The position numbers and the translations under genes are program-made. DNA of 64,000 bases. Source: Desulfitobacterium dehalogenans ATCC 51507 (lineage in GTDB: Bacteria > Bacillota > Desulfitobacteriia > Desulfitobacteriales > Desulfitobacteriaceae). A model generated the notes under the pieces. The model was not told where the DNA came from. It searched no databases and worked only from the letters and a program-made list of their open reading frames with translations. The stretch covers positions 3,906,001-3,970,000 of the forward strand of contig NC_018017.1 of the NCBI RefSeq assembly GCF_000243155.2, written 5' to 3'. The first letter of the stretch is position 1. The number at the start of each line of letters is the position of its first letter. Shown piece after piece: positions 10,506-63,693 of the stretch.

Positions 10506-10725
10506 CTATGATACGTTGTATTATTTTATATATTATTCGGTATCCTTCGATAAATTCCTACATTGGGAAAAAAAGAACTTTGTGACTAAAAAAAACTTTC
10601 TGATTTTACCCCATTTATTAGCATTTTCAGATTAGCATTTAGGGTTTTAAGTTTCTTATAAGTTTTAGGATAGCTATTCATGCCGCTGGCGGCACCGGCA
10701 GAGGAATAAAAAACGGCTCGGGTCA

Positions 10726-10970
10726 CGTAGCTTTACGCACAACGTTTACTCTATAGCTCCGGGGCTGGTCAACTCGCTTTCTTAACAGCTACGCCAAACC
10801 CCGCTGCTTTCTGTATGTGAACCGGTGGCTGCGCTACGTTAAGAAAGCTTTCGTTAACCCGACCGCCCCTCCGCTTAAAGAAAGCTTGGCTTATGGTGAG
10901 TGAAGCGAAGCAGAAGACTTAGCTGCCTTATACACAGTGAAATCCGTTCACTTTTGTGCGTAAAGCTACG
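10726..10970 (+). repeat. Module A of R1
   Basis: Closed by a perfect 17-base inverted repeat (10726-10742 with 10954-10970, core GTAGCTTTACGCACA). A second stem inside is GCTTTCTTAAC (10776-10786) with GTTAAGAAAGC (10838-10848). Just outside it, CGGGGC and GCCCC arms also pair. Confidence 0.8.
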
Positions 10971-11073
10971 CTTGCGGGTCTTTTTCAGCTCTGTTTTCGG
11001 GCTTTAGCACCAGCAGAGGATGAAAAAGCTTGTTTGGATCGGGTAGCAGCACCGCTCAGACCCGAAAGACAGC

Positions 11074-11310
11074 CCAAGGATTTTGCTTTAAGGTAGGGAA
11101 CGAATTTAAGCGAGCAGGTAAGCAATCTTCGCTAAAAGACTGCAGCGGAGTCGGGTTGGAAACAGGACGTTTCCAACCGGCTATGAGAACAAGTGCGAAA
11201 GCAGTGCTTTCGAGGAGCCGATTTAGCCGGGAACCCGACGCAGTGGAGGTCTTGAGCGATTAGATTGCTCCGCGCAGCTTATGGAGTGAGCGCCGAAAGC
11301 AAAATCTTGG
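11074..11310 (+). repeat. Module B of R1
   Basis: Outer arms CCAAGGATTTTGCTTT (11074-11089) and AAAGCAAAATCTTGG (11296-11310). Inside are GCAATCT/AGATTGC (11122, 11262), AAGAC/GTCTT (11136, 11249) and GTCGGGTT/AACCCGAC (11150, 11232). Next is a hairpin with perfect 10-bp arms (11154-11163, 11169-11178; loop AGGAC), then a GGCTA/TAGCC hairpin (11179, 11224). Confidence 0.8.
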
Positions 11311-11520
11311 AGAATCAGCTTTCAGGTCTTTTTCAGGGTAGCCCCCCCATGCCGCAAGCGGCATCGGCAGAGGATGAAACGTGGTCCTCCGGAATTATAA
11401 AGATTAATTAACTACCCTCTTCCCCATGCAATATGATATAATTTTTACACAAGTAAGAATTATTAAACAAAATCGAGCAATGATATCGAACAAACGATCT
11501 GAATTTGTGAGGTAGAAAAT

Positions 11521-25315: not shown

Positions 25316-27091
25316 TTAGCGGATTGGGTATTTGCCCTTTTCCACCACTAGCTTAGCAATCTCTTGGCGAAGTCCGATCATATCAACATTGGGGCGGCGT
25401 AAGAGCTTACGCATTCCTGCCAGAACAGTGCTCAGGGAATCACCTTGCTCAGCAGCACAAATGACTTCTTTAGCGTGTTGCTCGATGATATTCATAGCAC
25501 TGTAAGCTCCCAAGGTGGCAGCCTTTTCCACAAAGAGCTTGTGGTCATCGGTGACATCCATATCCTGAACTTTCAAGGCGCGGAGAACGCCGCTTTCCAT
25601 AGCGTAGACCTGGAGAATCATTTCGGCCATACCAAGGAGAACATATTGATTATCTTTTAGCTCCATTCCTAAGTTCTGAGCTGCAATTCCAGCAGCCATT
25701 AAGCAGAGCTTCTTAGCCTTTTGGGTCATATCCAGAAGAGCCGCCAGCCCTTCTTCCTCTGAACCTAAGCCGGCAGACATGAGGTCTTTGCTGACGTTCT
25801 TTGCAGCTGCCAGAAGTGGCAGTTCACCGCTCATAGCCCGTTTGAGCAAGGTGCCGGGGACGAGTAAGCGGTTGATTTCATTGGTTCCTTCGAAGAGACG
25901 GTTAATGCGGGAATCCCGATACATACGCTCAATGGGATATTCTGCGATAAAGCCATATCCACCATGAATCTGTACCCCTTCATCTACTGCCAGATCCAGA
26001 ACCTCAGAGGCCAGAACCTTGTTTAACGAGCACTCGATAGCATACTCTTCGATGGCTTTGCCGGCTTCTTTACGGCAATCGCCTGTGACATCCAGATCTT
26101 TGCAGGCTTCTTCCATCAGACCGGCAGTACGATAGACCACACTTTCTGCCAGATAAGTCTGGGTAGCAATCTCGGCAAACTTAGTTTGAATAGCACCGAA
26201 GGAGCTTAAGGGAACACCAAACTGCTTGCGCTCGCCGGCATATTTCAGAGTGACTTCTAAAGCAAGCTGAGCACTTCCGATAGCCGCAGCAGCCAGTTTG
26301 AAGCGTCCAACGTTCAGAATATTAAAGGCAACTACGTGGCCGCGGCCCAATTCGCCGACGACATTCTCTACAGGAACGGCAACATCTTCCAGGATAACTT
26401 GACGGGTGGAGGATCCTTTGATTCCCATCTTCTTCTCTTCCGGTCCGAAGGATACACCCGGCATAGTCCGCTCAACGATAAAGTTGGTGAGCTTACCATC
26501 CACTTTAGCGTAAACCAGGAAGATATCAGCAAAACCAGCATTGGTGATAAATTGCTTGGTTCCGTTGAGAATGTAGTGGGTTCCTTCAGCATTAAGAACT
26601 GCTGTGCTCTTGGCCCCTAGGGCATCCGAACCGGATCCGGGCTCGGTAAGGCAGTAAGCGGCAATTTTTTCCCCTGAGGCAAGGCCGGGGAGGTACTTTG
26701 CCTTTTGCTCCGGAGTACCGAAGTAGACGATGGGAAGGGTTCCGATTCCGGTATGAGCGGCGAAGGCTACGGCAAAGGAAGAGCCACGAGGAACCTCTTC
26801 ACCGACGACAACTGTTGAGAACTTATCCATGCTCATGCCGCCTAAATCTTCGGGGATCTCTAAGCCGAGAAGTCCCAACTCACCGGCTTGAGCCATAAAA
26901 CCGCGGATGAGGCCATCTTCCTGTTCTTCGAGAGCTTCGATCTTGGGCCCTATTTCTTTTTCTACGAAGTTACGGGTCATTTTCTTAAGCTGTAAATGAT
27001 CCTCGTTTAATTCCTCTGGGATATATACTTGCTCAGGAGTTACATCGGCAAGCAGGAAGCCGCCGCCTTTAAGGCCTAATTCCAATTCCAT
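25316..27091 (-). CDS. fadE: Acyl-CoA dehydrogenase, long form (FadE type)
   Basis: 591 residues starting at ATG 27091 behind GAGAGGAG. It oxidises acyl-CoA to enoyl-CoA with FAD and passes electrons to Etf. The classic fold spans about residues 30-420, with signatures YCLTEPGSGSDALG, FITNAGFADIFLVYAK, YAGERKQFGVPLSSFGAIQ and IHGGYGFIAEYPIERMYRDSR followed by LFEGTNEI. A C-terminal helical extension of about 170 residues marks the long subfamily seen in Bacillus FadE. A large palindromic element (R2) separates it from thiolase and FadN, although all run in the same direction. Confidence 0.93.
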   Translation of the reverse strand: MELELGLKGGGFLLADVTPEQVYIPEELNEDHLQLKKMTRNFVEKEIGPKIEALEEQEDGLIRGFMAQAGELGLLGLEIPEDLGGMSMDKFSTVVVGEEVPRGSSFAVAFAAHTGIGTLPIVYFGTPEQKAKYLPGLASGEKIAAYCLTEPGSGSDALGAKSTAVLNAEGTHYILNGTKQFITNAGFADIFLVYAKVDGKLTNFIVERTMPGVSFGPEEKKMGIKGSSTRQVILEDVAVPVENVVGELGRGHVVAFNILNVGRFKLAAAAIGSAQLALEVTLKYAGERKQFGVPLSSFGAIQTKFAEIATQTYLAESVVYRTAGLMEEACKDLDVTGDCRKEAGKAIEEYAIECSLNKVLASEVLDLAVDEGVQIHGGYGFIAEYPIERMYRDSRINRLFEGTNEINRLLVPGTLLKRAMSGELPLLAAAKNVSKDLMSAGLGSEEEGLAALLDMTQKAKKLCLMAAGIAAQNLGMELKDNQYVLLGMAEMILQVYAMESGVLRALKVQDMDVTDDHKLFVEKAATLGAYSAMNIIEQHAKEVICAAEQGDSLSTVLAGMRKLLRRPNVDMIGLRQEIAKLVVEKGKYPIR

Positions 27092-27209
27092 AGTATTTTC
27101 TCCTCTCTCAATCTTGGTTGGTTTTTGGATCTTTTGGGGGCTTCATTTGGGATCTTTGCTGGGGTCGTTCTATCTCTTTATTGGGGTCACTGCTCTTTAT
27201 TTGGGTCAG
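27092..27209. repeat. Degenerate short tandem repeat upstream of fadE
   Basis: Between 27130 and 27209 the phrase TTTGGGGTC / TTTGGGTC recurs four or five times, spaced by CT-rich bases (for example CTTTATTGGGGTCACTG, CTCTTTATTTGGGTCAG). It abuts repeat R2. It may be a relic of element insertion. Confidence 0.4.
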
Positions 27210-27388
27210 GTAGCTTTTCGCACATCATTCACTCATTAGCTCCAGGGCTGGCGCTCCCGCTTTCGCAGCAACTCCGCCAAACCTCAGGGTAATACCTGAA
27301 GTGAACCATGGCTCCGCTACCGCTACGAAAGCTTTGTTCGCCTGAACGCCCTTCCGCTAAAATCGTTCATTCTTGTGCGAAAAGCTAC
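27210..27388 (+). repeat. Module A of R2
   Basis: Outer arms GTAGCTTTTCGCACA (27210-27224) and TGTGCGAAAAGCTAC (27374-27388) differ from the other copies by one A:T to T:A swap on both sides. The inner arms are GCTTTCGCAGC (27259-27269) and GCTACGAAAGC (27322-27332). The loop holds a CCTCAGG-type hairpin. Confidence 0.8.
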
Positions 27389-27496
27389 GCTTATTCTGCA
27401 TGTAAGATCAGGTAATTCTTTGAAGTCTAAGCTGAGGCGGGAAACCTGTCTTCCCGTCTTCCTATCTTCCTATCCCACCGTATCGCAAAAGAAGAC

Positions 27497-27715
27497 CCAA
27501 GGATTTTGCTTGACAGTAGAGAACGGCTTCTAAGCGAGCAGTTAACCGTTCTTCGCGAAGAGCTTACAGCGGAGTCGGGTTGGAAACAGGACGTTTCCAA
27601 CCCGCTAGAGAGCCAAGGATGGCGATTTAGCGGGGAACCCGACGGAGCTGAAAGCTTGAGCGATTAGAACGGGTACGCGCAGCTTATAGAGTGAACGGGG
27701 CAAGCAAAATCCTGG
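27497..27715 (+). repeat. Module B of R2
   Basis: Arms TTTTGCTTG (27504-27512) and CAAGCAAAA (27701-27709). Inside are CCGTTCT/AGAACGG (27546, 27666), GAGCT/AGCTT (27560, 27653), GTCGGGTT/AACCCGAC (27574, 27636) and CGCTA/TAGCG (27603, 27628). The central hairpin with loop AGGAC is unchanged from other copies. Confidence 0.8.
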
Positions 27716-27737: not shown

Positions 27738-28892
27738 TTATAGAAGCTCGTAGACTCCTGCGGCTCCCATACCACCGCCGATGCACATGGTGACCATGCC
27801 GTATTTAAGGCCGCGGCGTTTCATTTCATGGAGCAGGGTAGCAGTAAGTTTGGCTCCGGTGCATCCGAGGGGGTGTCCGAAGGCGATGGCGCCGCCGTTG
27901 GGATTGACCTTAGCCGGGTCGATACCCAGGGTCTTGATGATGGCGAGGGACTGGGAGGCAAAAGCCTCGTTGAGCTCAAACAGATCGATTTGATCAAGGG
28001 TTAAGCCCACCTGCTTAAGAACTTTGGGGATGGCTTTGATGGGGCCGATTCCCATGAGTTCCGCCTCAACCCCTGCGACTGCGAAACCGCGCCATACGGC
28101 AAGGGGTTTCAGGTCCAGTTCTTTGACCTTTTCCTCGGACATAAGGAGCGTTGCTGCGGCACCGTCACTGGTCTGAGAGGAGTTCCCTGCCGTAACGCAT
28201 CCACCGTTTTTGAAGGCGGGTTTTAGTTTGCCGAGGGATTCCACGGTACTATCGGCACGAATTCCTTCGTCTTTACTAAACCATACTTCTCCCTTTTTAC
28301 CACTGGAGATAAGAACAGGAACGATCTCTTCATCAAAACGGCCGCTGACTTGAGCTGCGTGAGCCTTATGATGACTGGATGCTGCAAACTCATCTTGTTG
28401 TTCCCGAGTAATTTCATATTTTTTGGCTACATTCTCGGCAGTAAGTCCCATAGAGAGGTAGACTTCCGGACAATGCTCCATCATGTAAGGGTTGGGGGCC
28501 GGTTTGCCGCCGCCCATGGGGACTGCAGACATGCTTTCTGCTCCACCGGCTAACATAGCATCGGCTTCTCCCAGACGGATTCTGTCCGCTGCTAAGGAGA
28601 TGGCTTGCAGTCCTGAGGAACAAAAGCGATTGATGGTGAGTCCGGAGACATCGATAGGGAGACCTGCCCGCAGGGCAATCACCCGAGCCATGTTCATCCC
28701 TTGTTCTCCTTCAGGAAAGGAACAACCGATGACACAATCATCAATATCTGCGGGATTTAGATTGGGAGCACTTTTTAAAACATCTTGAATAACAAAAGCT
28801 GCCAGATCATCCGGACGCATGTGCGCTAAAGATCCCCGGCCGGCCTTTCCGATGGCAGTACGTTTCGCTTCAATAATAAATGCTTCTTTCAT
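27738..28892 (-). CDS. fadA: Acetyl-CoA acyltransferase (thiolase)
   Basis: 384 residues starting at ATG 28892 behind AGGAGGTG, 13 bases after the FadN gene. It cleaves 3-ketoacyl-CoA with CoA to acetyl-CoA and a shortened acyl-CoA. The nucleophilic Cys is in [12 protein letters not shown] (about residue 90). The second active-site block is [19 protein letters not shown] and the third is [11 protein letters not shown] near the C-terminus. The length and pairing with a bifunctional HAD/ECH protein match the Bacillus fadNA arrangement. Confidence 0.94.
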
Positions 28893-36355: not shown

Positions 36356-36410
36356 GCCGGATGCAGCTTGGGCGGCACCGGTAGAGGACGAAAAGTGTTG
36401 TCTGGGTCAT

Positions 36411-36674
36411 GTAGCTTTACGCACAACGAACCTTCGGGCGTGAGCTCCTGAAACCCTCCACCGGAGGCTTTCTTCATCGGAGCACACGTACTCCATAGCT
36501 CCAGAGCTGGTTAACTCGCTTTCTTAACAGCATCTGCAGCGGATAAGAACCCTTTGGGGTGTGCCGCTTTGAGCGAAACTGTCCACCGGACACTTTCGTC
36601 GCCAAACCTTTGAGCAGAAAGCCTTAGCTGCCTTATACACAGTGAAAGCCGTTCCCTCTTGTGCGTAAAGCTAC
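36411..36674 (+). repeat. Module A of R3
   Basis: Outer arms GTAGCTTTACGCACAA (36411-36426) and TTGTGCGTAAAGCTAC (36659-36674). It contains an inserted palindrome with arms CGTGAGCTCC (36439-36448) and GGAGCACACG (36479-36488), and the left inner arm GCTTTCTTAAC without its partner. Confidence 0.75.
36531..36598 (-). repeat. Double-hairpin mini-element (in module A of R3)
   Basis: 68 bases; read on the minus strand it goes CGAAA-stem-TTTCG, CTCAA, AGCGG...CCGCT, GCAGATG. It replaces a 5-base loop present in R1, giving a clear insertion relative to the empty site. It is nearly identical to the copy at 63424-63491. Confidence 0.75.
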
Positions 36675-36745
36675 GCTTGCGAGTCTTTTCGTGTCCTTTC
36701 TGGGGTCATTCTTTTCATCTGCAACCCCCAAGCCCGAAAGACAGG

Positions 36746-37045
36746 CCAAGGATTTTGCTTTAAGGCAGAGAACGGATTCTAAGCGAGCAGGTAAGCAATC
36801 TTCGCGAAAAGACTGCAGCGGAGTCGGGTTGGAAACAGGACGTTTCCAACCGGCTATGAGAACAAGTGCGAAAGCAGTGCTTTCGAGGAGCCGATTTAGC
36901 CACGAAACCCGGGCGAGGGTTTCGCCCAAGCCGCCACCCCACAGAGACTACTTAGCGGCGCAGGTGCACCCGGCGCAGCGGAGGTCTTGAGCGATTAGAT
37001 TGCTCCGCACAGCTTATAGAGTGAACGCCGAAAGCAAAATCCTGG
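36746..37045 (+). repeat. Module B of R3
   Basis: Outer arms CCAAGGATTTTGCTTT (36746-36761) and AAAGCAAAATCCTGG (37031-37045). It is 63 bases longer than B of R1, the difference being one mini-element between the GGCTA/TAGCC hairpin and the CCCG right arm. Confidence 0.8.
36903..36966 (+). repeat. Double-hairpin mini-element (in module B of R3)
   Basis: 64 bases: CGAAACCC/GGGTTTCG hairpin, CCCAA, GCCGC...GCGGC hairpin, GCAGGTG. It is absent at the same place in R1 and R2, and present in R4. Confidence 0.75.
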
Positions 37046-37151
37046 AGATTCAGCCTTCAGGCTTTTGCTGCATAGCCGGATACCATCAGCGATAGGGAAA
37101 ATTGAGATACTAAATAAATGGGTTCACCAACCCATGAGAGGGGTAGCATCG

Positions 37152-54827: not shown

Positions 54828-54864
54828 ACGCCTGTCCTTAAGTTTCTAACTTAAGGACAGGCGT
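54828..54864 (-). terminator. T-box-controlled terminator
   Basis: The stem has 17-base perfect arms (ACGCCTGTCCTTAAGTT side and its complement) and a 3-base loop, followed by TTTTT. It lies between the T-box sequence and trpX and is the off switch of the riboswitch. Confidence 0.9.
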
Positions 54865-55085
54865 ATAAACCTGCGGTACCACCTTAATTGATGCATGAAA
54901 TAAACCATACATCCTCTCTTGCAGGGTGCCATCACACCCTTAGCCCAGTAACGCTGGCTATGCGTCGTAAGCTACTCATTGCTTTTCGCTCCGCCCTCAG
55001 GGGCCCATTTACTCGCTCCGTTACCTGCCAGGCTTCCACCTTCCCCGGCTCTCTTTAAGGCTGGTCTTGCGGTTTTACTTCCCCA
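54828..55085 (-). promoter_or_regulatory. T-box riboswitch sensing tRNA-Trp, controlling the trpXYZ-type operon
   Basis: On the minus strand the T-box sequence AGGTGGTACCGC lies at 54873-54884, followed by the terminator. Stem I contains AGAGAGCCGG and GGTGGAAG. The specifier loop reads AAATGGGCCCCTGAG, with TGG at 55005-55007 in the codon position. TGG is tryptophan. Uncharged tRNA-Trp would stabilise the antiterminator and permit transcription. The specifier call rests on alignment with known T-box stem I layout from memory. Confidence 0.88.
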
Positions 55086-55140
55086 TCAACAGTTTAGAAC
55101 AGTTTAGCATATTATTTTCCAGGAATCAATAGAGATTTAT

Positions 55141-62860: not shown

Positions 62861-62895
62861 TTTGCTATGCTGAAAAAGGCCCGAAAGCTGAATCT

Positions 62896-63171
62896 CCAGG
62901 ATTTTGCTTTCGGCGTTCACTCTATAAGCTGCGCGGAGCAATCTAATCGCGAAAGACCTCCGCTGCGTCGGGTGCACCTGCGCCGCTAAGTAGTCTCTGT
63001 GGGGTGGCGGCTTGGGCGAAACCCTCGCCCGGGTTTCGTGGCTAAATCGGCTCCTGCCTCATAGCCGGTTGGAAACGTCCTGTTTCCAACCCGACTCCGC
63101 TGCAATCTTTCGCGAAGATTGCTTACCTGCTCACTTAGAATCCGTTCTCTGCCTTAAAGCAAAATCCTTGG
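62896..63171 (-). repeat. Module B of R4
   Basis: Outer arms CCAGGATTTTGCTTT (62896-62910) and AAAGCAAAATCCTTGG (63156-63171). The right inner stem is CGCGAAAGA/TCTTTCGCG, replacing the imperfect pair of R1 and R3. The GGCTA/TAGCC hairpin is shortened. Confidence 0.8.
62975..63038 (-). repeat. Double-hairpin mini-element (in module B of R4)
   Basis: 64 bases, identical in length and nearly in sequence to the copy in B of R3, at the same insertion point. Confidence 0.75.
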
Positions 63172-63423
63172 GCTGTCTTTCGGGTCTGAGCAGTGCAACT
63201 CTTTCGAAAAGACCCAAAAGAAGGGCCAACAAAGACGCGCAAGCGTAGCTTTACGCACAGGAGCGAACGGCTTTCACTGTGTATAAGGCAGCTAAGGCTT
63301 CTGCTTCGCTTCACTCACCATAAGCCAAGCTTTCTTTAAGCGGAAGGGCGGCCAGGTCAACGGGGCTTTCTTAACTTAGACGAGCCACCGGTTCACCTCA
63401 GGTATTACCCGGAGGTTTGGCTC

Positions 63424-63491
63424 CGAAAGTGTCCGGTGGACAGTTTCGCTCAAAGCGGCACACCCCAGAGAGTACTTATCCGCTGCAGATG
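63424..63491 (+). repeat. Double-hairpin mini-element (first in module A of R4)
   Basis: 68 bases, matching the copy at 36531-36598 in R3. Second stem is AGCGG/CCGCT, where the other type has GCCGC/GCGGC. Confidence 0.75.
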
Positions 63492-63564
63492 CTGTTAAGA
63501 AAGCGAGTGAACCAGCCCTGGAGCTATAGAGTACGTGAGCTCCGATGAAGAAAGCCTCCGGTGA

Positions 63565-63633
63565 CGAAACCATCCAGTGAATGGTTTCGCCCAAGCCGCC
63601 CTAGCCACAAAGATGAACTAAGCGGCGCAGGTG
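63565..63633 (+). repeat. Double-hairpin mini-element (second in module A of R4)
   Basis: 69 bases with first stem CGAAACCAT/ATGGTTTCG and second stem GCCGC/GCGGC. R3 has the host palindrome without this insertion at the matching point (near 36456), giving an empty site for comparison. Confidence 0.75.
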
Positions 63634-63693
63634 GGTTTCAGGAGCTCACGCCCGAAGGTTCGTTGTGCGTAAAGCTACGCGACCCGAGCAAAT

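Follow-up and report, generated by a model that had tools for sequence, protein, structure and literature searches.

The 64,000-nucleotide window analyzed here, taken from a Desulfitobacterium dehalogenans genome that consists of a single contig of 4,321,753 bases, carries a foldable intergenic repeat whose stems differ from copy to copy while one hairpin loop hardly changes, and this raises the question of what kind of element it is and what its conserved loop might be for. The copy at the center of this question, R2, is located within an intergenic region of about 640 bp, with an acyl-CoA dehydrogenase gene (25316-27091, - strand) on one side and a thiolase gene (27738-28892, - strand) on the other, and is antisense to both of these fatty-acid genes. 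All four copies named in the original prediction, which we here call module B, are present in the sequence.

11073..11306, + strand: module B copy R1, with a nested hairpin that interrupts the SL2 loop
27497..27715, + strand: module B copy R2, a structured RNA element resembling TwoAYGGAY, bounded by the terminal inverted repeats CCAAGGATTTTGCTTG and CAAGCAAAATCCTGG
36747..37045, + strand: module B copy R3, carrying inserted cassettes
62893..63168, - strand: module B copy R4, with one cassette

The original prediction held that four stems had changed on both sides between R1 and R2, and the changes from TTTTGCTTT/AAAGCAAAA to TTTTGCTTG/CAAGCAAAA, from GCAATCT/AGATTGC to CCGTTCT/AGAACGG, from AAGAC/GTCTT to GAGCT/AGCTT, and from GGCTA/TAGCC to CGCTA/TAGCG are all found in the sequence, as is the R4 stem CGCGAAAGA/TCTTTCGCG. 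The observation is confirmed and was in fact understated, as a constant loop combined with covarying stems is seen throughout 75 distinct copies and also among other genera. In an alignment of 38 copies from about five to six genomes, covering 58 pairs, 98.9% of the paired cells can pair, versus 91.9% after shuffling and 33-43% after sliding; 17 pairs show double changes versus 10.8 in the shuffled alignments, and the covariation score of 0.183 (0.063 in the control) was reached by 0 of 500 shuffles. Eighteen comparisons at sites common to two species, among which some sequences recur, gave 76 compensated double changes versus 2 uncompensated ones, with 45 pairs broken and 19 turned into G-U, and gene conversion between copies could be an added source of the compensated changes at these sites. 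Folded as a + strand RNA, R2 reaches -106 kcal/mol (z = -9.1). Among the 75 distinct copies, the + strand has 42 G-U pairs versus 18 A-C mismatches (p = 0.003), and this excess indicates that the conserved fold is that of an RNA of the + strand and not of the DNA of both strands. The covariation thus supports a functional nucleic-acid structure, as had been proposed, whereas a benefit of the resident copies to the cell is something that we infer.

The bases that are held constant lie in two neighboring hairpins.

27580..27603, + strand: SL1, TTGGAAAC-AGGAC-GTTTCCAA, with the loop GGA at 27589-27591
27603..27636, + strand: SL2, a covarying stem with the inner hairpin GCC-AAGGAT-GGC and the loop GGA at 27617-27619

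Their GGA loops are 28 nt apart. The 17-base SL1 hairpin, GGAAACAGGACGTTTCC, has four exact occurrences in the window, where 0.19 would be expected even with up to three mismatches. A covariance-model search, which had been suggested as the check, found this loop near-constant and the stems covarying across many copies; we looked for free variation of AGGAC and for uncompensated drift of the stems and saw neither. The description of the AGGAC hairpin as invariant is nearly but not absolutely correct, in that 72 of the 75 distinct copies have AGGAC and the other three retain GGA, so that GGA is present in 75 of 75. SL2 keeps its GGA in 72 of 75 uninterrupted loops, most of which read AGGA, with AAGGAU in R2 and AUGGAC in others. 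An intact SL2 GGA hairpin is missing from 12 of the 53 copies of this genome, nearly always where a nested hairpin lies in or beside the loop. This corrects the original prediction for R1 and R3, which belong to these 12 and have such a hairpin inserted in the loop in place of a clean second hairpin. In about a fifth of the module B copies, the nested cassette (ACAAGTGCGAAAGC...GCTTTCG; window positions 11185-11220 and 36858-36895) is placed within the GGA loop of SL2 and breaks up what is presumed to be a CsrA site; the sister species G003 has a related cassette with the same effect.

Two adjacent GGA-loop hairpins within a closing stem are also found in TwoAYGGAY RNA, and the core of R2 resembles this Rfam family.

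27577..27640, + strand: Rfam match to TwoAYGGAY (RF01731), sub-threshold at 34.7 bits (gathering threshold 43, E 0.0011)

There was no Rfam match to the element at the gathering threshold, and no G000 copy at E 0.001 with RF01731; a copy from another genus, L033, aligned to the full length of RF01731 (1-168) at 37.3 bits. We also searched in the reverse direction with a model of the 125-position core built only from these repeats (covariance model R1, distinct from the copy R1), which recovered 16 of the 20 RF01731 loci tested in relatives, the four that it missed belonging to a more distant family. Intermediate homologues score above the cut-off in both models, for example the locus L106/L076 with 97 bits in covariance model R1 and 48.8 bits in RF01731. 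This reciprocal recovery is stronger evidence of homology than the sub-threshold match, and by this sequence comparison the core of module B is homologous to TwoAYGGAY. Rfam places TwoAYGGAY together with E. coli CsrB in clan CL00106 and gives RF01731 the type label Cis-reg. TwoAYGGAY was put forward in 2015 as a clostridial CsrA-binding sRNA and was then untested, at a time when the only established CsrA decoy sRNAs were those of Gammaproteobacteria (PMC4333381), and in the literature after 2015 we found no test of this proposal.

Module B usually has a partner, module A, which lies upstream of 26 of 30 first B copies and also occurs alone, with at least about 40 copies scored.

10732..10972, - strand: module A copy R1, which contains an inserted cassette, ends approximate
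27212..27390, - strand: module A copy R2, a structured RNA on the strand opposite to B, with ends GTAGCTTTTCGCAC and GTGCGAAAAGCTAC
36409..36670, - strand: module A copy R3, ends approximate
63243..63682, + strand: module A copy R4, containing several cassettes, RNA-like on the strand opposite its B, ends approximate

The reverse complement of the module A consensus folds better than the consensus itself (-47 versus -31 kcal/mol) and has a GU:AC ratio of 71:12, which together indicate that module A is structured as RNA on the opposite strand and that A and B are divergent. We rejected the idea that module A is a near copy of B, as covariance model R1 gives it only 4.7 bits; A and B resemble each other weakly in their subterminal sequence (p about 0.01-0.02 per side). 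Optional inserted cassettes occur in both modules. Up to three of them, each of about 57-66 nt, stand at fixed places in module A (upstream A of L007, L015, and L019; window 36409-36670) and are combined differently from copy to copy, which gives the impression of small hairpin units inserting themselves into the larger repeat.

How the repeat reached its present number can be read from its ends and from related genomes. A 14-base end motif occurs 179 times (87 + 92) versus 3 times in a reversed control, which corresponds to about 88 copies in this genome. A DNA search of the genome gave 46 pieces, and covariance model R1 has at least 47 matches here, at least 47 in the sister species G002, and 19 in G003, with matches in 30 of the 74 genomes of the order, all belonging to one family. 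The copies are dispersed, have terminal inverted repeats, and contain no reading frame, as is typical of MITE-like elements, and they have spread by insertion. The R1 and R3 sites are empty in both G002 and G003, the R2 site is common to G003 and empty in G002, and the R4 site holds a B in G002 and is empty in G003; that is, each of the four window sites is empty at the orthologous position in at least one sister species. Same-site copies were present for 13 of the 23 sampled G002 entries and for 5 of the 16 G003 entries, some loci being counted twice. The insertion at R3 can be delimited.

36363..37074, no strand assigned: R3 composite insertion of 712 bp, absent from G002, with direct repeats GCCGGAT at 36356-36362 and 37075-37081

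The empty G002 site has a single GCCGGAT versus the two that flank the composite, and the repeat at R3 is likely, in this one case only, a 7-bp target duplication. No occurrence of the element was found on plasmids, in phages, or in viral contigs, and a literature search found nothing on such repeats in Desulfitobacterium. At L012 and L028, two inverted module B copies are separated by about 240 bp and lack a module A, and inverted B pairs also occur in related genomes (L070, L074, L075, and L069).

Short, dispersed, foldable intergenic repeats without a reading frame are known as bcr1 in the Bacillus cereus group, as Correia elements, and as REP/BIME, and module B resembles them in all of these respects; to our knowledge, none of them has CsrA-type GGA-loop hairpins or homology to Csr-clan RNAs. 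With TwoAYGGAY RNA, module B shares the paired GGA hairpins, a length of about 150-220 nt, and an occurrence in Clostridia. In contrast to that RNA, module B is mobile and present in about 88 copies per genome, has terminal inverted repeats and loops shortened to AGGAC and AGGA, is usually paired with module A, and takes up optional cassettes, and R2 stays below the Rfam cut-off. The CsrB/CsrC and RsmX/Y/Z sRNAs likewise carry GGA-loop hairpins, and CsrB is in the same Rfam clan. In these sRNAs the sites are more numerous, a dedicated promoter and terminator are present, and the gene occurs once or a few times, whereas module B has two candidate sites and many dispersed copies, and a consensus scan of the one copy R2 found no promoter or terminator there.

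The loops themselves point to a possible binding protein. In further relatives, the SL1 stems are wholly rewritten (GUAC, GCAC, ACAC, AUCC) around the loops AAGGAU, ACGGAC, AUGGAC, and AGGGAU, with an AC-GU closure in most, and these hairpins mostly read AC[ANGGAY]GU; GUAC[AAGGAU]GUAC, which is among them, agrees with RUACARGGAUGU, the consensus selected in vitro for CsrA. SL1 in the present genome is the pentaloop AGGAC, lacking the N of ANGGAX, and SL2 is usually the tetraloop AGGA; RsmZ loops that lack this N are bound more weakly by the CsrA homologue RsmE (PMC4005645). The genome has one csrA, whose product is 77 aa long; the gene follows fliW and precedes the flagellin gene in a fliW-csrA-hag locus. 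Its hag leader contains the hairpin CGGGC-AAGGAU-GCCCG and then AAGGAGG at the ribosome site, an arrangement known from Bacillus subtilis hag, and the AAGGAU hexaloop on the G-C stem of this native leader equals the SL2 loop of R2; unlike module B, the hag site is a single-copy cis site ahead of a ribosome-binding site. Among genomes that are at least 90% complete, the element or RF01731 is present in 0 of 6 without csrA versus 25-28 of 42 with csrA (p about 0.003-0.008, a statistic that ignores phylogeny), and in two genomes of lower completeness (79% and 83%) a match is present and no csrA was found. As observations on csrA itself, single frames of about 144-150 aa that each hold two tandem CsrA domains occur at G046:C12:40887-41222 and G051:C13:32721-33056, and several relatives in genus g6 have 2-4 csrA matches.

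On balance, we favor the view that module B represents a lineage of TwoAYGGAY/Csr-clan RNA that has dispersed in the manner of a mobile element, carries candidate CsrA sites, and probably serves as a decoy when it is read through. A copy read through on the + strand would allow SL1 and SL2 each to dock on one face of a CsrA dimer, and the transcript might then compete for CsrA with other targets such as the flagellin leader, so that each transcribed copy would be either a CsrA decoy or a CsrA site placed in a host transcript. We tentatively speculate, going further, that a CsrA decoy RNA has turned mobile, in which case the approximately 88 copies would seed predicted CsrA hairpins genome-wide, either titrating CsrA or using it for their own spread or protection, and the divergent partner A would provide one structured RNA per direction of read-through. 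These repeats lend the clostridial TwoAYGGAY proposal much stronger sequence support, through their consensus-like loops, the native hag loop, and the association with csrA, and they tie it to a group of hosts that can be cultured. They also represent an unusual evolutionary setting, in which an RNA with candidate sites for a regulatory protein has been multiplied as a dispersed repeat.

The main rival to a CsrA decoy is a selfish MITE- or REP-like element whose hairpins, either in the DNA or in an RNA intermediate, are recognized by a mobility enzyme, so that the GGA loops would contact the element's own mobility protein and CsrA would be irrelevant. Such an element would account for the numerous copies with terminal inverted repeats, the empty sites, and the single 7-bp flanking repeat, and it would fit the placement of the intergenic copies, which include 19 sense and 21 antisense copies and a further 9 in convergent and 2 in divergent gaps. 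Antisense copies are, moreover, no more decayed than sense copies, and, given this lack of a difference in placement or decay, there is no visible sign that read-through maintains the resident copies. However, the asymmetry of G-U over A-C opposes a plain DNA fold, no long autonomous version with the same ends was found among the 100 places listed, and the loops of relatives agree with CsrA sites and with the hag site of the host. An IS200/RAYT-type (Y1) transposase as the general mobilizer was rejected, since Y1_Tnp is absent from the element-rich genomes G003 and G009; the Y1 transposase in G000 has a stop in two of its three pieces. We regard a purely selfish element as rather unlikely.

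Orientation bears equally on the idea that the repeats are riboswitch- or leader-like elements controlling adjacent genes from within their mRNAs, for which their intergenic position, their high degree of structure, and the Cis-reg label of RF01731 would speak. Copies stand in either orientation beside unrelated genes (gene class being judged for the window copies only), R2 is antisense to both of its neighbors, and TwoAYGGAY was marked as probably not cis-regulatory by Weinberg et al. (PMC2864571); we rejected cis-regulation on the orientation counts (19 sense versus 21 antisense) and consider it highly improbable. A REP/BIME-like transcript-end or RNA-stability element, with a stable fold that blocks 3' exonucleases or aids termination and with no specific protein partner, would be in line with the very stable fold, with the preponderance of convergent over divergent gaps, and with the T runs that follow the outer stem in some copies, but conservation of GGA while other loop bases and the stems vary is unexpected for a simple stability stem. 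Moreover, where copies lie between codirectional genes, about half of them are antisense, and no terminator was found at R2; this explanation also appears improbable.

Several smaller features accompany the repeats in the window. T-rich quasi-repeats with GGGGTC or GGGTC lie upstream of module A at 27120-27210, and many other copies are flanked likewise. A T-box leader RNA at 54850-55098 (- strand) exceeds its Rfam cut-off. A third short repeat, a TGCCGC...GCGGCA palindrome followed by GGCAGAGGATGAAAA, is found at 10680-10700, at 11340-11375, and in the A-B spacers, and it occurs ahead of A, between the two modules, and behind B, which gives the whole a mosaic layout.
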